This document shows, one piece after another, positions 34,246 to 45,499 of a DNA stretch of 64,000 nucleotides (positions are counted from its first letter, which is position 1; each line of letters opens with the position of its first letter). The stretch covers positions 2,938,181 to 3,002,180 of the forward strand of contig CP092081.1 in the NCBI GenBank assembly GCA_022226935.1, written 5' to 3'. The notes below the pieces were generated by a model that was not told the DNA's origin, ran no database searches, and worked only from the letters and a program-made list of their open reading frames with translations. Origin of the DNA: Nitrospira sp. GTDB lineage: Bacteria > Nitrospirota > Nitrospiria > Nitrospirales > Nitrospiraceae. Made by a program: the position numbers and the translations under genes.

Positions 34246-37200
34246 GTGCGATCCGATAAAAAACCTCCGCTGAAGTCCGATAAAAAAGTTCCTCCCAAGG
34301 TCCAGAAAAAGGGCAGCCTCGGCTACAACAAAAAGTCGGCGCTGCTCGAGGACGCGATTACGCAAATGAACGCCGGCAAGTACGGCCGTGCGTCCTCCGC
34401 CCTCAAAGACCTGCTCGCGCTCGACCCTCTCAACGCTGAAGCCAGGCGTCTCTTTGCCACCCTCCATCTGCGGCTCGGAAGCCTCATGAGCGCCAGGACG
34501 GCGTTCGAATCACTGGCTCGGGAAGCCATGGAACGGCAGGATTATTGGCTGGCGGAGTCGCTGCTGCGGGAATATCTCACCGCAGGGCCACGCTATGTGC
34601 CTTTCTTGGAAATGCTGGGACGCGTCTACGAGGAAAAAGGCGACGTCATGGCGGCGGTGGCGGAGTACGGCAAAGCGGTTGAAGTCTTGCTGGAGGACCC
34701 GGACTCGGAGAAACCAAATCACCCCAGTGAGCTTTTCGCGCGGATTCGCTCTATTGCGCCCGGGAGTCCGGTCGCGTTCCGCCTTGCCGCGATGTTCGAC
34801 ACGGTGACCGGGCAAGTGCTGCAGGTCGCGCCTCAGCCTGCGGTTCCTGCCCAGGAACACGAATCTCCTCAGGCTGCAGCGGCGGAGGCTCCTGCCGATG
34901 GTGTCGCGCCTATGCCCTGGGAACAGATGGAGCCTCTGCAGGCCGATGTGCCTGTCGCTCAAGCCCCGTCCAGTCCATTGGAAGAACCGCCGACAACGAC
35001 GGTCGTCGAGCCGGCTATGTCTTCGGCGTTGCCCGTCGAGGCTGTAGCGGCGGGTGGACCACAGAAGCCCGAGGTCGATCAAAGTCCTGTGCCCGAAACA
35101 TCGGAACTGCATCCACCACTGATACCGGCGGAGCCTGATGCTCTTTCCGTGCCCCTGGTTGGCTCCTCCGAAGAGCCGATGAAGGCCGCAGCTGAAAGCG
35201 AACTGCCGGCTATGAATCCGCTTCCCGCTTTGACCAATGAGGCGGAAGTAGCTCCTGCCCCGGTCTCTCTGGAGTCTCCGCCGGCGAACGTCGCGTTGGT
35301 CGAGGGCGGTGCTGATCCAATTGCGCATGCCCCTTCGAGCCCGGCACCGATGCCGTGGGACCAGGTTGAAGAAATTGCCGTCGTCATTCCTCCAGCATCT
35401 GCAAGTCAGGAATCGACGGGTTCAGACGTGGTGCCCCCGGTTTCCCCTGAACCTGAAGTGGGACCGAGCGTCAACGTCGAATCCGTGCTTCCTTCCATGG
35501 AACCGCTGGCAGAGACCGGCAACCAGACCCTTGCTCCTCCGCCCTCGACGCCTACTCCTATGCCTTGGGTTCAGGTTGAAGAGGAGGTCATCGCGATACC
35601 GCCGGCTGCGAGTCAGGTGTCGGCTATGCCTGAATCTTCGACGGCGCCGACCTCTGAAACCGAAGGGCCATCGGTTCCTACCAGTGATCCCGCTCTTCAG
35701 GCCATCGAAGTGTTGTCGCAATCAGGCAGTCACCCGATCGTCGCCACACCGACGACTCCGGTGTCCATGCCCTGGGATCAGGTCGAAGAGAACCCCATTC
35801 TCATTCCTCCGGCGGCAGCGCCCTCCGCATCCAGCGTAGAGGAGGTTGCGCCTGAATCATGTGAAGAAAAGCCGTTGCCACCAGCCATCGAGGCAGTGAG
35901 CTCCGGGGTAGAAGTTCCCTCGCGGCAGGCAGAGGCTCCAGCGGCACCACCATCCGCTTCCAGTGCTTCAGAAATGACTTCATCCGGCCTGTCCTGGGAC
36001 GAAATTCTCGCAGCGGTCGCGGCTATGCAATCCACTCCTGCGCCGGTGCAGTCGCTTCCAAGCGCGGAGCCGGCCCAGGCGCCAGATCGCACCGTGCCGG
36101 AGGAGCCGGTTCCTGCAGTCACGGCGATTTCGGATGCTGTCGAGACGACAACGGTCTTCTCAGATGCCCCCTCGCCCGAACCCTCCTTGGATCCGGGCAG
36201 CGCCTCCTCGACGTTGTCTGCCCCCATGCCCTGGGAACAGGTCGAAGTCGAAGACGTCACTATTCCACGCCAAGAACCGGAACCGGAATTTGGTTCAGCT
36301 CCCCTCGCAGGCGAAGCAATCGGGAATTCCGGCGGGATGACATTGGATTCCACCCTCGTTTTGCCTGCGTCACCGGAAACGCCGGAGCCAGCGACCCAAG
36401 TGGAATCGCCGATTGTCGCCGCTGAACCTTCGGCGGGCAGCGGCGAAGAATCGGGGCAGGGGTTCCGTCTTCTCCAGTCGAACGAGCAGGAGCCGCACAA
36501 TAATTCACTTGACCACCCGGCGGAATCACCTGAGGCGACTCTTGCGGAGAAGTCCCCCACGCTATCCGAACCTGAGCCGTCTATAGGTCTCCCGAAGGAA
36601 GAATCAGCCGCCGTTCCCTTGCGTCTGGTCGAAAGCGAAAGCATTCCCGCGCAAGCCGCGGGTGAACCCGCTTCTGTCAAAGCGGAGCCGATCACGGAAT
36701 TCACTCTCGCCGAAATGCACGTTGAATCGATTGAGAAGGATTCAGAGCCGCTACCTCAAGTGGAGCACTCGCTGGAGTTGATCGATGCGCCGGAAGCGAT
36801 GACGCCTTCAGAGCCTGCACCGGTAGACGAGATCGTCGCCGCGCCTGTCTCATCATCTTCCGTCGAAGATCAAACGATTTCCGTCGCTGAACCAATTGCT
36901 CTCGAGGCGCAGGACGATCAGCCGGCTGAGCCTTCGCCCCTGGAAAGTGAGCCCGCACCGGTCCTTTCGCTGGAGCCGGCCGCGAAGTCTGACGAGCAGG
37001 CGGTTGTTGAATCTCTGGCGAGTGACGCCGACGTGTCGCTTCCCGAGTTGACTGATGTGCAAACTGCTCCAGTTGAAGAATCCCTGCCGGTGTCTCCGCC
37101 AGGGCTGTCCGCCGTAGTTCCGACGGACGAGTCGAGGGAGATTGTTCAGGACCCTCAGGCTTTTGAGCCTGTACAGTCAGACCAGCCTGTGGACATGGCT

Positions 37201-39024
37201 CCCTCCGAGGACTCCGCTCTGGAAGCAGAGGTGCCTGAATCGGCTGCATCCGCTCCAGCCGACGTCCCTGCGAGTGATGGATTACATATTCTTTGGGAGG
37301 ATGCCTCGTCAGCACCGACCCCGAAACCTTCTACCGGAAACATGCTGACTCGCTGGCTCAAAAAGCCTGCGGAACCTGTTGCCCCTGAAGTCAGCGCCGT
37401 TCCTCCAACGACTCCCGTTTCGGCTGAGCCTGTCGCGCCGCTCGCCTCACAGGCCGTGGAGGAATCAGTTCCTGCGGTAGTCGTGACGGAACTGCCGTAT
37501 GAACCCATCGAGCAGGCTCCGGCGGCGGTTGCAGAAGAGCCACCACATCGTCCCGCACGTATCCAACCTGCGGGGCCCGGCCTCTGGAACCGAATGGGTG
37601 AGGCAGCAGTTTCTTTGGTCGGTGCGGGGGTATCGACGACGCGATCACTCGTGGTCCTGATTCTGGCATTGGTCGGCCTCGTCCTGTTTGCAGTTGGGGG
37701 GACCATCGCTGCGGTGGTCCTGACGTGGCTGATACTCGAGGAGCAACCGAATGCAGCCTATCGCACGATGACGTCGGTGCCGCAACAGACTTTGCAAGAC
37801 TCCAGTAAAAATGGCTATCTCCTCTTACTCGGTCTCGCAGCTTCCGCAAGTCAGGATCCCGTGCAGGTTGGAATGGATCGACGGGTTGAAGGTGCCGACC
37901 GGGCATTCACGCATACCTGCCTGACCGGAGAAGGGTATTCGCCTGATGGAGGGCTCAGTGCCTCGGCCGACGCGGCGGGTAAGTGGATGAAGGCTGCCGA
38001 TCCGGCGTTGCAGATGCAGATGGATGTAAGCAGTGCCAAAACGTGGCTGTCGCAGGCCGAAGTCAGCCTGGGCCGCTACCGCCAATGGTTGAACAAGCCG
38101 TTTGAAGATGTGGGATACGGCCAGTCGATCAGTCCGAACTGCGGGCTCATTCTTCAGACGCATCGGCTGTACCTTGCCGACGGATTTGCGCAGGATCTGG
38201 ACACGGGATTCGGGCGGCTGGAAACCGATCTTACGGCCTGGCGGACGGTCTTGGGACAGGCGAAATCATTGCCGGTGAAAATGTTGGCCAGTGCAGCGAT
38301 GAACGACGACGCGATGATCATGGGCGGGCTCTTGCAGCGGCCGGATCTCGATGAACGATATGTCAGCCGAATGGCGAAATTGGCGAAGCCGTTAGAGCCA
38401 TCTGAACAATCGCTCCGTTGGCCGATGCAGAGCCAGTTTGTGTTGGCCACCAAGACGCTGGATGACGCGGTCAGCCAGAATCGGGCCGACACGCGTCCGT
38501 TCTATGGCGCCATCGCGGCAGCGTTGCCGTTGCCGAAGCAACGCCGGTTCAATGCCTACGCCGAATATTATGAGGCCGCCGGAAAAGCGACGGCCGACGG
38601 GCGGTATGCCGACCTGCCGAAGCTCTCCCAGTTTGTGCGTGTGGCTCCGTACAGCGTGAGCGACATGGTGATGAATCCGATCGAAGGTTTGGTCGGGGTG
38701 GACCCCATGCCCACATGGGAAATCTACGCGGGTCGGGTTCTGGAAACCGATGCGCGGTTGCGGTTGGTCTCGCTGCAGGCCTGGTTACGCCGGACGCCGC
38801 CGGAGCAGGACCTGCTGACGCGGTTAGCCAAGGCCGGCCAGGGGCTCTACGATCCCTTTACCGGGTTGCCCATGCTGGTCAATATGAAAAAAGGCATGCT
38901 CTACAGTGTCGGACTGGACCTCAAAGACAATGAAGCGCACGAGCGCCTTGATCTCGTGGCTCAGATCCCGTCTGTTGCCTGGGCCGGCGGAAAAAAATCG
39001 GCCGATGCAGGCAAATCCAAGTAG
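34246..39024 (+). CDS. 1592-residue TPR / disordered / single-pass membrane protein
   Basis: Starts at a GTG. Residues 1-30 are Lys-rich. About 30-190 read as TPR-like helical repeats (AITQMNAGKYGRASSALKDL, EARRLFATLHLRLGSL). About 195-1120 is a Pro/Glu/Ala/Ser-rich, probably disordered linker with a recurring PMPW[ED]QVE-like motif (residues 222, 368, 438, 507, 660; degenerate forms at 581 and 1015). A single hydrophobic helix (about 1135-1160) follows, then a soluble C-terminal domain of about 430 residues with NGYLLLLGLAA and DPVQVG. No signal peptide, so TPR inside and C-domain outside is most likely. The layout recalls FimV/HubP-type pole organisers, but I know no exact family. Confidence 0.85.
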   Translation: MRSDKKPPLKSDKKVPPKVQKKGSLGYNKKSALLEDAITQMNAGKYGRASSALKDLLALDPLNAEARRLFATLHLRLGSLMSARTAFESLAREAMERQDYWLAESLLREYLTAGPRYVPFLEMLGRVYEEKGDVMAAVAEYGKAVEVLLEDPDSEKPNHPSELFARIRSIAPGSPVAFRLAAMFDTVTGQVLQVAPQPAVPAQEHESPQAAAAEAPADGVAPMPWEQMEPLQADVPVAQAPSSPLEEPPTTTVVEPAMSSALPVEAVAAGGPQKPEVDQSPVPETSELHPPLIPAEPDALSVPLVGSSEEPMKAAAESELPAMNPLPALTNEAEVAPAPVSLESPPANVALVEGGADPIAHAPSSPAPMPWDQVEEIAVVIPPASASQESTGSDVVPPVSPEPEVGPSVNVESVLPSMEPLAETGNQTLAPPPSTPTPMPWVQVEEEVIAIPPAASQVSAMPESSTAPTSETEGPSVPTSDPALQAIEVLSQSGSHPIVATPTTPVSMPWDQVEENPILIPPAAAPSASSVEEVAPESCEEKPLPPAIEAVSSGVEVPSRQAEAPAAPPSASSASEMTSSGLSWDEILAAVAAMQSTPAPVQSLPSAEPAQAPDRTVPEEPVPAVTAISDAVETTTVFSDAPSPEPSLDPGSASSTLSAPMPWEQVEVEDVTIPRQEPEPEFGSAPLAGEAIGNSGGMTLDSTLVLPASPETPEPATQVESPIVAAEPSAGSGEESGQGFRLLQSNEQEPHNNSLDHPAESPEATLAEKSPTLSEPEPSIGLPKEESAAVPLRLVESESIPAQAAGEPASVKAEPITEFTLAEMHVESIEKDSEPLPQVEHSLELIDAPEAMTPSEPAPVDEIVAAPVSSSSVEDQTISVAEPIALEAQDDQPAEPSPLESEPAPVLSLEPAAKSDEQAVVESLASDADVSLPELTDVQTAPVEESLPVSPPGLSAVVPTDESREIVQDPQAFEPVQSDQPVDMAPSEDSALEAEVPESAASAPADVPASDGLHILWEDASSAPTPKPSTGNMLTRWLKKPAEPVAPEVSAVPPTTPVSAEPVAPLASQAVEESVPAVVVTELPYEPIEQAPAAVAEEPPHRPARIQPAGPGLWNRMGEAAVSLVGAGVSTTRSLVVLILALVGLVLFAVGGTIAAVVLTWLILEEQPNAAYRTMTSVPQQTLQDSSKNGYLLLLGLAASASQDPVQVGMDRRVEGADRAFTHTCLTGEGYSPDGGLSASADAAGKWMKAADPALQMQMDVSSAKTWLSQAEVSLGRYRQWLNKPFEDVGYGQSISPNCGLILQTHRLYLADGFAQDLDTGFGRLETDLTAWRTVLGQAKSLPVKMLASAAMNDDAMIMGGLLQRPDLDERYVSRMAKLAKPLEPSEQSLRWPMQSQFVLATKTLDDAVSQNRADTRPFYGAIAAALPLPKQRRFNAYAEYYEAAGKATADGRYADLPKLSQFVRVAPYSVSDMVMNPIEGLVGVDPMPTWEIYAGRVLETDARLRLVSLQAWLRRTPPEQDLLTRLAKAGQGLYDPFTGLPMLVNMKKGMLYSVGLDLKDNEAHERLDLVAQIPSVAWAGGKKSADAGKSK
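34909..37296 (+). repeat. Recurrent MPW[ED]QVE motif in the disordered linker
   Basis: Cores of the motif start at 34909 (PMPWEQMEP), 35347 (PMPWDQVEE), 35557 (PMPWVQVEEE), 35764 (SMPWDQVEE), 36223 (PMPWEQVEVE), with relatives at 35986 (GLSWDEIL) and 37288 (ILWEDA). Spacing in the central part is about 70-79 residues, so the linker probably grew by repeat duplication. It may be a docking motif used several times. Confidence 0.7.
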
Positions 39025-39365: not shown

Positions 39366-39986
39366 ATGGGGATGAGCGGCCATTCCCCCATCGCCGTTCC
39401 TGGACAGCCAGGCCACCTGTGCCTGGGTGAGAGGGTGGCATCTCTGGATCAAACCCAGGCATTGGATCGGTTTCTGGCCGGGATTGAGCGGCGCGCATTC
39501 CGTATGGCGCATATTGCCACGGGGAATGAGGACGAGGCGCTGGATCTTGTCCAGGATGCCATGCTCAAGCTCGCGCAGAAGTATGCCCGGCGGCCTGAAG
39601 AAGAATGGGGCGCGCTGTTTCACTGCATTCTCCAGAGCCGCATTCGCGATTGGTATCGGCGGGAACGGGTGAGAAACCGCCTGCGGGAATTTTTTCGTGG
39701 GGCGCAGGATGATGACGAGGCGGAAGATCCGCTGGAGCAGATTCCCGATTCCATCACCCCGGCGCCGGATGGCGAGGTGCAGCGTAAGCGGGCCTGCGCG
39801 GAATTGGAGGTGGCTCTGCGCGCGTTACCGCTTCGTCAGCAACAGGCGTTTCTTCTGCGCATCTGGGAAGAGCTGGATGTGGCGCAAACGGCTCACGCGA
39901 TGGGGTGTTCCGAGGGCAGCGTCAAAACCCATTTGTTCCGAGCGTTGCAGGTGCTGCGCCAGCGATTGGGAGAACATTGGCCATGA
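39366..39986 (+). CDS. Second ECF RNA polymerase sigma factor
   Basis: A 206-residue ECF sigma with region 2 (GNEDEALDLVQDAMLKLAQK, EEEWGALFHCILQSRIRDWY) and region 4 (LPLRQQQAFLLRIWEELDVA, then MGCSEGSVKTHLFRALQVLR). The start is uncertain: ATG at 39366 is used, but the core begins near 39435. Its stop overlaps the next start by 4 bases (ATGA), so translation is coupled. Same gene set (sigma, DUF3619, unknown, DUF3106) is known from beta-proteobacteria, with no settled role. Confidence 0.9.
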   Translation: MGMSGHSPIAVPGQPGHLCLGERVASLDQTQALDRFLAGIERRAFRMAHIATGNEDEALDLVQDAMLKLAQKYARRPEEEWGALFHCILQSRIRDWYRRERVRNRLREFFRGAQDDDEAEDPLEQIPDSITPAPDGEVQRKRACAELEVALRALPLRQQQAFLLRIWEELDVAQTAHAMGCSEGSVKTHLFRALQVLRQRLGEHWP

Positions 39987-40339
39987 ACGAACGATCGGAC
40001 GAACAGCCGGATCCATTGGCAGCTGCGGCGAAGCGTCTTCTCGATCACCGCGTGCAGGAGCTCGATCGAAAGACGGTGTTGGCCCTCCAGCGTGCGCGGG
40101 TGAATGCCCTAAGCCGGTCCTCTACGCGCCGGCCTTGGCTGCAATGGGCCGGCGGTGTGGCCCTGGCCTCGATGGCCGCTCTGGCGGTGACGATGTGGCT
40201 GTGGCAGGCGAATGGTGCCAACCATTCGCATTTGCTGTTGGAAGATCTCGAACTGATGCAATCACCGGAAAATCTGGAATTGTCCGAAGACCTCGAATTT
40301 TACGATTGGCTGGCCGATGGTACCGCCGCGACCGGCTAG
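39983..40339 (+). CDS. DUF3619-like membrane protein, likely sigma-factor partner
   Basis: A 118-residue protein with a hydrophilic N-terminus (RRPWLQWAGG boundary), one hydrophobic helix GVALASMAALAVTMWLW, and a short acidic tail (MQSPENLELSEDLEFYDWL). It starts inside the stop of the sigma gene (ATGA). Position and shape fit DUF3619, seen downstream of ECF sigma genes. It would be an anti-sigma factor by placement: cytoplasmic sigma-binding part, membrane anchor, periplasmic acidic tail. No zinc finger seen. Confidence 0.78.
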   Translation: MNERSDEQPDPLAAAAKRLLDHRVQELDRKTVLALQRARVNALSRSSTRRPWLQWAGGVALASMAALAVTMWLWQANGANHSHLLLEDLELMQSPENLELSEDLEFYDWLADGTAATG

Positions 40340-40643
40340 CGCAGGACTCATGATCCTGTTCTGCTTGGCCGTCGGGGTTACCGAAGCGGAGCCGGCGTCG
40401 GCACCGCCGGCAGAAGAGCCGGATACCGAGTTGCTTGATTTCCTGGGCAGCTGGCAGGATGAGGATGGACATTGGGTCGATCCCTTTACCGTCACCAATG
40501 ATCAAAACTCGAAGCCCTCTGTGGAACCAAAACCGAATCGCAGCGGGATGTCCCCGGAAGCCCAGAAGCCCGTGCCAGAGATACCGTCACCGTCTGCTCA
40601 AGATCGCCCGCGCAACCCCCTAAGGATGCAAACCGGCCCATGA
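40317..40643 (+). CDS. Small exported acidic protein in the sigma/DUF3106 operon
   Basis: A 108-residue protein whose start overlaps the upstream gene by 23 bases. Signal-like hydrophobic stretch AGLMILFCLAVGVTEAEP, then acidic EEPDTELLDFLGSWQDEDGH WVDP-like segment and a Pro/Ser-rich tail. It has no recognised domain. The phrase LLDFLGSWQDEDGHWVDP resembles a short motif that could dock to a partner. It is followed by the DUF3106 gene with a 4-base overlap. Confidence 0.65.
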   Translation: MVPPRPASAGLMILFCLAVGVTEAEPASAPPAEEPDTELLDFLGSWQDEDGHWVDPFTVTNDQNSKPSVEPKPNRSGMSPEAQKPVPEIPSPSAQDRPRNPLRMQTGP

Positions 40644-41143
40644 ACGTGTTGGTGGGAATCATGGCAGTGTTCCTCGCGTTGTCGCCTGCCTGGGCGCAAG
40701 GTGACCAGGCCGGGGTTTCCTGGAGCCAGCTCAGTCCAGGCGAACAGCAATTGTTGCAGCGGTTCAGCGACAACTGGGATCAGTTACCCCCGCGAAAACA
40801 GCAACGCTTGCGGAAGGGAGCGCAGCAGTGGGGCACGATGACGCCCGAGGAGCGTCAGGAAGCCAAGCAGCGGTTCAAAGAATGGCGGTCGCTTCCACCG
40901 GAACAACGACAGCAATTGCGTGAGCGGTATCAGCAGTTCCGCCAATTGCCGCCTGAACAGCGCGAATCGGTGCGGAATGCCCGCCGATGGTTCCGATCAC
41001 TGCCTCCCGAGCAGCGGAAGGAGTTGCGGGAAAAGTTTCAGAAGATGTCCCCCGAGGAGCGGCGTGCCTATCGGCGGGAACTTCGTCGTCAGTATGGCGG
41101 CAGTGGTGGCGGGCAGCCGCCTGGTGGAAGCGCCGGTCAGTAA
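40640..41143 (+). CDS. DUF3106 periplasmic helical repeat protein
   Basis: A 167-residue exported protein (signal MNVLVGIMAVFLALSPAWAQ). The mature part is built of short repeated helices with PPEQR-type links: SLPPEQRQQLRERYQQFRQL, PPEQRESVRNARRWFRSLPP, and so on, ending in a Gly-rich tail. This is DUF3106, rich in Gln/Arg/Glu, probably an extended helical surface, similar in style to Spy/CpxP-like chaperones (inference). Last gene of the ECF operon. The 3' end overlaps the convergent GGDEF gene by 7 bases. Confidence 0.82.
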   Translation: MNVLVGIMAVFLALSPAWAQGDQAGVSWSQLSPGEQQLLQRFSDNWDQLPPRKQQRLRKGAQQWGTMTPEERQEAKQRFKEWRSLPPEQRQQLRERYQQFRQLPPEQRESVRNARRWFRSLPPEQRKELREKFQKMSPEERRAYRRELRRQYGGSGGGQPPGGSAGQ

Positions 41144-43524: not shown

Positions 43525-44208
43525 ATGAAGTGTGAAATTCTCTATCCGGGGGCCTTTCCCATGGTGCGGGTGTATCTGGATGCCAGTGAGACGGTCAAGG
43601 CCGAGTCGGGCGCCATGGTCGCCGCCTCGCCGACGATCGATATCGAGAGCAAGATGGAAGGCGGGTTTCTCGGAGCGCTTTCGCGGAAGATGTTGAGCGG
43701 CGAGAAATTTTTCTTCCAGACACTGCGAGCCAGCCGGGGAGCCGGAGAAGTCTTGCTGGCGCCGACCGTCCCCGGTGAAATCGTGCTGCTGGAGCTGGAC
43801 GGTGTGAATGAGTACATGGTGCAGAAAGACGGGTTTCTGGCCGGCGCAGAAGGCGTGAAGATCGAAAGCAAGATGCAAAGCCTGACACGCGGGTTGCTGG
43901 GAGGCGAAGGGTTTTTCATCTTGAAGATCGGCGGGACCGGCCAGTTGGTCCTCAACAGTTTCGGTGCCATCCATAAAATCGAACTGAAACCGAACGAAGA
44001 ATACATTGTGGACAACAGCCACCTCGTGGCCTGGAGCTCCACGACGACCTACAATATCGAAAAGGCCTCCTCGGGCTGGATTGCCAGCTTGACGTCGGGC
44101 GAAGGCTTGGTGTGCCGCTTCCGCGGACCGGGCGTCGTGTACATCCAAAGCCGGAATCCCGGCAGTTTTGGCAATTGGATCAGACAATTCATCCCCGTTT
44201 CCGAGTAG
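43525..44208 (+). CDS. AIM24 / TIGR00266 family protein
   Basis: A 227-residue beta-rich protein with KCEILYPGAFPMVRVYLD, ESGAMVAASPTIDIESKM, GEKFFFQTLRAS and GTGQLVLNSFGAIHKIEL, as in the AIM24/TIGR00266 family (double beta-helix related to the mitochondrial AIM24). Function in bacteria is not known. The GxGxxF turn regions repeat in two halves, giving pseudo-twofold symmetry. GAAGGGAG precedes the ATG. It is followed by a large hairpin and the M48 protease gene on the same strand. Confidence 0.9.
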   Translation: MKCEILYPGAFPMVRVYLDASETVKAESGAMVAASPTIDIESKMEGGFLGALSRKMLSGEKFFFQTLRASRGAGEVLLAPTVPGEIVLLELDGVNEYMVQKDGFLAGAEGVKIESKMQSLTRGLLGGEGFFILKIGGTGQLVLNSFGAIHKIELKPNEEYIVDNSHLVAWSSTTTYNIEKASSGWIASLTSGEGLVCRFRGPGVVYIQSRNPGSFGNWIRQFIPVSE

Positions 44209-44257
44209 CGGCTGAATGGCGGGCGCTGAAAACGCCTGCTAACTTTGTTCTCGGTTC

Positions 44258-44303
44258 GAAAAAATCCTCAACGTACCCCCGAGGGTACGCCTCCGGTTTT
44301 TTC
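44258..44303. terminator. Large bidirectional hairpin, terminator-like
   Basis: GAAAAAATCC (44258-44267), inner stem CGTACCC (44272-44278), loop CCGA, GGGTACG (44283-44289), outer GGTTTTTTC (44295-44303). The outer arms give A-runs on one side and T-runs on the other, so it can stop transcription in both directions. It sits between two same-strand genes, so it probably ends the AIM24-like message. It has the look of a family of dispersed intergenic elements; only one copy is seen in this window. Confidence 0.7.
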
Positions 44304-44365
44304 TCACCTGCGGCCGCGTTGGCCGCCGTTTTGAGCACCCGTGTGAAGAAGGTTGAGTACTGAAG

Positions 44366-45499
44366 ATGGCCCTCGCTCCCAACGCGCTCTGTTTCGGTGA
44401 TGGACTGCCGGGGGCCGGTGTGCCCTGCGCCGTCATGCTGGATGGAGAAAGCTTGCGCGTCAGTCCTATGGGGCCGTCGTCGCTCGTGGACCAGATCGTG
44501 GCCTTTGCTGACATGGCGGTTGAAGCCGGAGGGTTGGATCACGATCAGCTGGTGGTGTCGTGGGGAACTGCCTCATCGGCCCGGACGCTGTATGTCAAAG
44601 ATCCCGCCTTGATCGTCGCCTTCCGCCGCGCGGCGCCGCCCGAGTTGACCGCCCATCTTGAGCGGGCAGCCAACCAAGTCCGCCGCGCGCGGCACAACCA
44701 TCGCCTGTTGTGGGGCACGGTACTGGGAGTCTTGACCGGCCTGGGACTGTTGTTCTGGTTTGGCACGGATCTGATGGTTGAATGGGCGGTCGCCAGAATT
44801 CCGATCGAATGGGAACAAAAATTGGGCGAAACCGTGTATCAGGATTTTCTGTCCAAGGAGACCGTACTGAAGGAAGGGCCGGCGGTCCGCGCAGTACAAG
44901 AAATGACGCAGCGGTTGACGGAGAAAATTCCCAATAACCCGTACAAGTTTCAGATCTCCGTGGTGCAAAGCCCTGTGGTGAATGCCTTCGCGCTGCCGGG
45001 AGGGTATGTCGTGGTCTTCACCGGTTTGATGGCCAAAGCGGAAAGCGGCGAAGAAGTGGCCGGCGTCTTGAGTCATGAATTGAATCATGTGTTGCAGCGT
45101 CACGGTATGGAGCGCATGGTCAAGATGCTCGGACTGTCTGCCGTTGTGGGTATTCTGTTGGGGGACCAACAGGGCCTGACCGGCTTGGCAAGGCAGGTGG
45201 GCATGGAGTTGGTGACGTTGAAGTTCGGGCGCGCACAGGAGACGGAAGCGGATGTCACCGGCATTCGACTCTTGTCTGACGCGCGTATTGCACCGGATGG
45301 GATGATCCGGTTTTTTGAACGGCTGTCTGAAAAGGACAAGGAACGCGTCGAAGTGTTTTCTACCCATCCCATGAGCGCGGCGCGTGCGGCACTCTTGAAG
45401 GCGGAATTGGCGGCATTGCCCAAACGAACCCCTGAACCGTTTACCTTCCAATGGAAGACTATTCAGGAGTCGTTGGGAGCGTCTGAACCCAAGACGTAA
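44366..45499 (+). CDS. M48 family zinc metalloprotease, membrane anchored
   Basis: A 377-residue protein. Zinc site HELNH in VLSHELNHVLQRHGMERM and downstream Glu in ETEADVTGIRLL are those of M48 peptidases. The N-terminal part (residues 1-110) is a small cytosolic domain followed by one hydrophobic helix LWGTVLGVLTGLGLLFWFGT; the protease then faces the periplasm. In the family such proteins process membrane or periplasmic proteins (like HtpX or BepA). Its N-terminal cytosolic domain has no named family known to me. Confidence 0.9.
   Translation: MALAPNALCFGDGLPGAGVPCAVMLDGESLRVSPMGPSSLVDQIVAFADMAVEAGGLDHDQLVVSWGTASSARTLYVKDPALIVAFRRAAPPELTAHLERAANQVRRARHNHRLLWGTVLGVLTGLGLLFWFGTDLMVEWAVARIPIEWEQKLGETVYQDFLSKETVLKEGPAVRAVQEMTQRLTEKIPNNPYKFQISVVQSPVVNAFALPGGYVVVFTGLMAKAESGEEVAGVLSHELNHVLQRHGMERMVKMLGLSAVVGILLGDQQGLTGLARQVGMELVTLKFGRAQETEADVTGIRLLSDARIAPDGMIRFFERLSEKDKERVEVFSTHPMSAARAALLKAELAALPKRTPEPFTFQWKTIQESLGASEPKT

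Follow-up and report, generated by a model that had tools for sequence, protein, structure and literature searches.

FimV/HubP-type polar organisers are composed, in order, of a periplasmic LysM domain, a transmembrane helix, an acidic cytoplasmic region, and a C-terminal TPR domain (PMC12918733). PodJ is arranged as a cytosolic part, a disordered region, a transmembrane helix, and a periplasmic domain, and its disordered region binds clients (PMC8980812). The TPR domain of kinesin light chain reads W-acidic and LFP-acidic peptides (PMC6214655, PMC13078783). W-acidic peptides, for example SKIP TNLEWDDSAI, bind its concave TPR face between TPR2 and TPR3, and the chain also has an acidic segment that binds the TPR in cis and competes with the W-acidic peptide (PMC6214655). 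MamA, a magnetosome scaffold built of TPRs, is reported to have a positive concave face and to assemble into homo-oligomers (PMC3905215).

The protein described here lies within a 64,000-nucleotide stretch (the window) of a Nitrospira genome that consists of a single 4.23-Mb contig. It is encoded by a single open frame at 34246..39024 on the forward strand, which begins with GTG and specifies 1592 residues (167 kDa). Orthologues share the start residue. This giant protein is nowhere described in the literature that was searched, in keeping with an initial annotation that knew of no described family. It is rather likely, judging from its sequence, to be a membrane-spanning Nitrospiraceae scaffold with a tandem array of Trp-acidic docking peptides. 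Its parts are as follows.

34246..34335, forward strand: basic, Lys-rich N-terminal tail (residues 1-30), pI 10.4; the same tail is present in orthologues
34318..34815, forward strand: TPR domain (residues 25-190), presumed cytosolic and presumed peptide receptor (Pfam TPR_16/TPR_19; AlphaFold)
34816..37545, forward strand: disordered acidic linker (about residues 191-1100; composition, low pLDDT, 53% column conservation, charge)
37645..37734, forward strand: single membrane helix (about residues 1134-1163), N-in/C-out (hydropathy, K+R bias)
37747..39021, forward strand: C-domain of 425 residues (1168-1592), presumed periplasmic (AlphaFold; Cys1225 and Cys1299)

The initial annotation had proposed a TPR-like N-terminus, some 900 residues rich in Pro, Glu, Ala, and Ser, a lone membrane helix near residues 1135-1160, and a large C-terminal domain. 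Each of these was recovered. Pfam places TPRs at residues 37-102 within an AlphaFold solenoid at 25-190, and residues 170-1100 consist of 17% P, 15% A, 13% E, and 12% S. A single hydrophobic stretch is present at about residues 1134-1163, and residues 1168-1592 have a confident AlphaFold fold. The family contains three gene types, namely fusion genes such as this one, TPR-only genes, and C-domain-only genes.

The linker contains five copies of an MPW-centred motif and three further conserved elements.

34909..34932, forward strand: motif copy 1, PMPWEQME, start 223, without the IP tail
35347..35370, forward strand: motif copy 2, PMPWDQVE, start 369, extended by ...VVIPP
35557..35580, forward strand: motif copy 3, PMPWVQVE, start 439; most orthologues have W-D
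35764..35787, forward strand: motif copy 4, SMPWDQVE, start 508; M, P, W, and D identical in 24 genus members
36223..36246, forward strand: motif copy 5, PMPWEQVE...VTIP, start 661; MPWEQ identical in 24 genus members
35983..36024, forward strand: second motif class, SGLSWDEILAAVAA, a conserved linker peak that includes GLSWDE at 582
37288..37302, forward strand: W-acidic-like element ILWED at 1015; ILW[DE][DNH] is present in 23 of 73 orthologues
37333..37365, forward strand: juxtamembrane TGNMLTRWLKK element, 95% conserved in the genus

The five sites had been annotated as PMPW[ED]QVE. Their positions hold when the preceding residue is counted, but copy 3 reads MPWVQVE, and Ser takes the place of Pro before copy 4. 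The supposed degenerate copies at 581 and 1015 do correspond to W elements (582 and 1015), which are separate conserved motifs rather than degenerate copies. A spacing of mostly 70-79 residues is roughly right with these elements counted (146, 70, 69, 74, 79, and 354), but strict regularity does not hold. Among orthologues the spacing differs, with most values at 62-79 and 131-146; what regularity there is reflects past duplication of the repeats and sets no exact distance.

An alignment of 232 motif instances from orthologues gives MPW[DE]Q[VI][EQ]E-x3-[VI]-x-I-P, an extension that the initial annotation missed and that is best kept in copies after the first. In almost every orthologue, copy 1 follows the TPR domain at a distance of about 35 residues. 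The number of MPW[DE] copies per fusion protein (n = 73) is zero in 4, one in 12, two in 26, three in 4, four in 18, and five in 9. The motifs are thus preserved in sequence, but in neither spacing nor number.

The five MPW copies of this protein compare with 0.02 in residue shuffles (maximum of 1 in 2000), and the 73 distinct orthologous linkers contain 193 MPW[DE] where 0.145 are expected from shuffles. Among 24 genus members, conservation reaches 95.6% in the motif core columns and 53.2% in the rest of the linker, with 2.8 and 8.6 codon types per site, respectively. Within the genus, the TPR domain is 96.0% and the C-domain 85% conserved. Conservation of the MPW cores amid a variable linker, which the initial annotation had said would support docking sites, is therefore present. 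The cores are kept despite synonymous codon variation, so purifying selection acts on the peptide and not on the DNA. A chance repeat is ruled out by the 193 versus 0.145 count and by core conservation.

The motif is also exclusive to this gene. A DNA pattern for MPW[DE]Q[VIM] has 90 matches in 23 of 41 genomes; all 90 are within the giant gene, so the motif is found in no other protein. The reversed pattern, used as a control, has no match in the 41 genomes, and two congeners that lack the giant gene (G002 and G024) have no match for the motif. A partner search by shared motif yielded no other carrier protein. The linker motifs would qualify as docking peptides by their hallmarks, a reading supported by evolution: they are short, multicopy, Trp-centred, and conserved within a disordered, variable context.

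Residues 200-1100 of the linker have a pI of 4.05, with 154 acidic and 18 basic residues. Disorder, which the initial annotation had wanted predicted, is seen over residues 200-465 in an AlphaFold model of residues 1-465 (pLDDT about 50); from composition, the linker beyond residue 465 is probably disordered as well. The second motif class, as SGLSW[DE]EIL or, in other genera, FSW[NEK]..F, is present in 67 of 73 orthologues and is probably an amphipathic helix.

The TPR assignment is supported by Pfam TPR_19 above its cut-off, by the AlphaFold model (an all-helical solenoid over residues 25-190 with block pLDDT of about 96-98), and by Foldseek, which also matches TPRs. The domain is 69-95% identical across most fusion proteins. 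Helices 64-77 and 100-113, including R68, T72, and R76, are nearly invariant in 58 orthologues. Such conservation appears to exceed packing needs, and by TPR register R68, T72, and R76 are predicted to face the groove. At fifteen concave positions, which the analyst picked using helix register and not coordinates, 68 orthologues carry ERRFTHRLWLESREY. In TPR paralogues that lack the motif, the changes are R67C, mostly R68Q, and a replaced W101. The TPR domain plus tail has a pI of 9.2 against 4.05 for the linker, and these opposite charges could dock.

Structures similar to the TPR model include KLC2 bound to SKIP and to calsyntenin peptides (3zfw, 6f9i; Z 12.1-12.3) and MamA (Z 12.1; matched chains of about 175-183 residues, TPR-only). 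At Z of about 12, both tie with dozens of other TPRs, so the match is an analogy and not a classification. The AlphaFold monomer of residues 1-465 docked no motif confidently (motif pLDDT under 65), a weak test without inter-domain confidence. At each of the three modelled motifs the pLDDT is higher (58-64, compared with about 48 otherwise), and two of them form a short helix. Among the four fusion proteins without MPW[DE] is L093, which retains the full groove signature, and the deep-branching L121 has a near-complete signature and no MPW[DE]. Groove and motif therefore do not co-vary strictly.

Hydropathy of the membrane helix reaches 2.8. More K+R residues are present on its N side in 68 of 73 orthologues, with equal numbers in the other five. 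The C-domain contains exactly two Cys in 73 of 73 fusion proteins, Cys1225 and Cys1299 in this protein. The cytosolic TPR and external C-domain of the initial annotation fit both the positive-inside rule and the invariant Cys pair. The predicted topology places the N-part in the cytosol and the C-domain, with a disulphide, in the periplasm.

The C-domain is modelled by AlphaFold as all-helical with small C-terminal beta elements (pLDDT 83.5, pTM 0.85). Its best Pfam match is at E 0.048 (DUF1612, in 3 of 37 members), and neither NCBIfam nor, up to E 10, the PDB sequences gave any match. The best fold matches were E 0.7 (Foldseek) and Z 7.1 (VIA-align), the latter among generic helical repeats; these scores are no better than chance for helical models, and no fold match is convincing. 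A known enzyme or fold was rejected on these profile, sequence, and fold searches; assignment to a known enzyme family is what the initial annotation had held would refute its reading. The C-domain is a new domain family. Its end, DP[FY]TGxPM...LYSVGxDxxD, presumably resembles the calcium-loop end of GspG-type pseudopilins.

The search for the C-domain among other Nitrospirota, also suggested by the initial annotation, was run over 395 genomes and found relatives in 104, namely 102 of the 110 genomes of its own family and two of another family. The latter two matched at first only over the C-terminal 90 positions; a profile search of both loci showed the proteins to be distant, full-length, and of the C-domain-only type (E about 1e-21 to 1e-23). 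These genes (L156:3925-5343 and L157:7137-8609) are each preceded by a gene for a 311-328 aa protein without a Pfam match and with a similar start, making a two-gene unit possible. No C-domain was found on plasmids. One contig filed under an Anaerolineales MAG (L098, JABWBV010000215.1) carries a Nitrospira-type C-domain at 49% identity with the same downstream neighbours, and is probably a binning error.

The giant fusion family is confined to Nitrospiraceae. The protein is near-universal and lineage-specific, being present in nearly all nitrite-oxidising Nitrospira; orthologues include those of Candidatus Nitrospira defluvii (FP929003.1), N. moscoviensis NSP M-1, N. lenta, and many Nitrospira MAGs. 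The TPR-only protein, over its second half, shares roughly 35-45% identity with the TPR domain of the giant. The TPR-only paralogue of this genome has 640 aa (G000:C1:241917-242684; L048:8974-10893) and lies upstream of two divergent genes that, by eye, resemble lptF/lptG permeases. The C-domain-only protein is about 470-540 aa long with a signal anchor and is absent from this genome.

In a maximum-likelihood tree of the C-domain, 31 of 31 sampled fusions lie to the same side of a single branch (100/100); the fusion therefore took place a single time. It joined a duplicated TPR protein to a duplicated membrane-anchored C-domain protein. In several genomes the unfused TPR-only and C-domain-only genes are 25-40 kb apart on one contig, a hint of an ancestral pair. 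The deepest fusions (L126 and L039, then L121) lack MPW[DE]. The motif array arises in the genus crown and was lost or degraded in L093.

The giant gene stands apart from its neighbours. The most constant of these, both downstream, encode an AIM24-family protein (64 of 86 loci) and an M48 peptidase (58 of 86 loci), located at 43525-45496 in the window. A conserved cassette of ECF sigma factor, membrane protein, and DUF3106 protein is downstream in only 26-27 of 86 loci. In the window it occupies 39366-41143 and comprises an ECF sigma factor, a small membrane protein (possibly an anti-sigma factor), a short ORF, and a DUF3106 protein. A function based on an operon was rejected, as neither the ECF cassette nor the AIM24/M48 genes explain the giant protein.

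The C-domain-only paralogue loci have a different setting. A periplasmic binding protein is encoded in 16 of 18, a FecCD permease with an ABC ATPase in 15 of 18, and a TonB-dependent receptor (cobalamin/siderophore-type uptake) in 12 of 18, in a divergent arrangement. These loci include L134 (2013-9323), L042, L045, L046, L047, L127-L129, L132, L133, and L158-L163. The uptake-gene link may point to the role of the C-domain.

Small-genome family members without the giant gene (G159, G203, G034, G339, and G349) have NxrA-sized (1149 aa) molybdopterin ORFs, as judged by ORF length and a profile below its cut-off. Because these genomes keep such ORFs, the giant protein is probably not required for NXR. 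A link with nitrite oxidation was rejected on this ground, although weakly.

A conserved TPR domain, a floppy linker studded with motifs, and a new periplasmic domain together point to a probable membrane scaffold. The TPR domain and acidic linker would lie in the cytosol, one helix would cross the inner membrane, and the helical domain would sit in the periplasm, where it might sense or hold something. The docking sites would be the MPW array (one to five copies in most species) and the second, helical motif. The scaffold would probably bring partners, or further copies of the same protein, together at the membrane. Within this reading, the likeliest single receptor would be the protein's own TPR groove, in cis or between molecules; by analogy with the kinesin light chain TPR and its W-acidic peptides this is a reasonable prospect, somewhat short of even. 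Copy 1 would then fill the groove of its own chain as a latch, and the other copies would link adjacent molecules in a multivalent, membrane-bound patch; alternatively, client peptides would displace the motif copies. A candidate peptide ligand for the TPR domain (residues 20-195) is MPWDQVEEIAVVIPPA.

The receptor could also act in trans. The array may recruit a separate client enzyme or structural protein while the TPR domain binds something else, a reading that would leave the scaffold standing and that we consider a real contender, if not quite a probable one. Multicopy short linker motifs commonly bind a separate folded client, the TPR and motif array differ in conservation history (the L121 groove signature was nearly present before any MPW[DE]), and the presence of a second class of motif (SGLSWDEIL) hints that there is more than one client. 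Against this, no candidate client was found, the AIM24-family and M48 peptidase neighbours being too unspecific. In another reading, the C-domain would be the working part, as a periplasmic binding or uptake-related module, with the TPR and linker as a regulatory or spacer arm. This is unlikely. Although 15-16 of 18 C-domain-only paralogue loci adjoin uptake genes and the C-domain is well conserved within the genus (85%), the giant gene was not seen beside an uptake cluster and has different constant neighbours. Moreover, conservation is higher in the TPR domain and motif cores than in the C-domain; the cytosolic half is therefore no mere spacer.

Descent from a FimV/HubP-type polar organiser would account for the acidic disordered cytosolic region, single transmembrane helix, and TPR domain that are held in common (PMC12918733), but it is very improbable: order and topology are reversed, Pfam and NCBIfam give no LysM, FimV_core, or FimV_Cterm match in the giant protein, and the C-domain has its own family and an origin inside Nitrospirota. 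Least probable, to the point of being negligible, is that the repeats are functionless leftovers of tandem duplication. Duplication does build the array, as seen from the nearly identical repeats of L119 (three copies, 71 aa apart, in repeats of about 70 aa), but the linker diverges and only the cores are kept, with synonymous codon change inside them, which refutes this explanation.

No nitrite oxidisers are more widespread than Nitrospira, among which the comammox organisms are also counted. To our knowledge, little has been described of how they organise their envelope. The giant protein brings a short motif conserved like a folded domain within a disordered linker, and adds a new periplasmic domain family. 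The evolutionary birth of its gene is clear, by duplication plus fusion. It also makes linear-motif docking in bacteria open to direct test.

Compared with FimV/HubP, the giant protein shares an acidic disordered cytosolic region (linker pI 4.05, low pLDDT over the modelled part), a TPR domain, and one transmembrane helix, and the HubP region likewise contains repeats. The topology is reversed, however: the N-terminus is the TPR domain with no periplasmic LysM, and the protein ends in an unrelated helical domain in place of a FimV-type TPR. The likeness that the initial annotation drew is thus one of design, not membership. Its wider interpretation is partly supported, by motif conservation, by a C-domain that belongs to no known enzyme family, and by the predicted topology.

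The order of PodJ is closer. This Caulobacter polar scaffold also has a long cytosolic part with a disordered region, one transmembrane helix, and a C-terminal periplasmic domain. PodJ differs in having cytosolic coiled coils and, in the periplasm, a TPR and a peptidoglycan-binding domain, whereas in the giant protein the TPR is cytosolic and the external part is an unrelated helical domain. No profile match to a periplasmic TPR/Sel1 or peptidoglycan-binding domain was found in the C-domain or the giant protein. With a TPR as the cytosolic fold and 17% P in the linker, coiled coils would be unlikely in the giant protein. The matched MamA structures are TPR-only and lack a linker, transmembrane helix, and C-domain.

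Kinesin light chain resembles the giant protein in pairing a TPR solenoid with Trp/acidic peptides. MPW[DE] and ILW[DE]D look like W-acidic peptides, with a hydrophobic residue before a Trp flanked by acidic residues. The likeness would be one of function, not descent; homology is limited to the TPR fold, and the giant motif has a Pro before the Trp and an IP tail. A tentative and rather doubtful extension of this analogy is that bacteria independently evolved a W-acidic switch of their own, with reader and ligands in one protein. Motif 1 would latch the TPR in cis, and the opened TPR would cross-link neighbours through the remaining motifs, giving a membrane-bound condensate coupled to the new periplasmic domain. 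If true, a W-acidic switch would span the main genus of nitrite oxidisers. What sets the giant protein apart from kinesin light chain is that the TPR and the motif array, its predicted ligands, are contained within one bacterial membrane protein.
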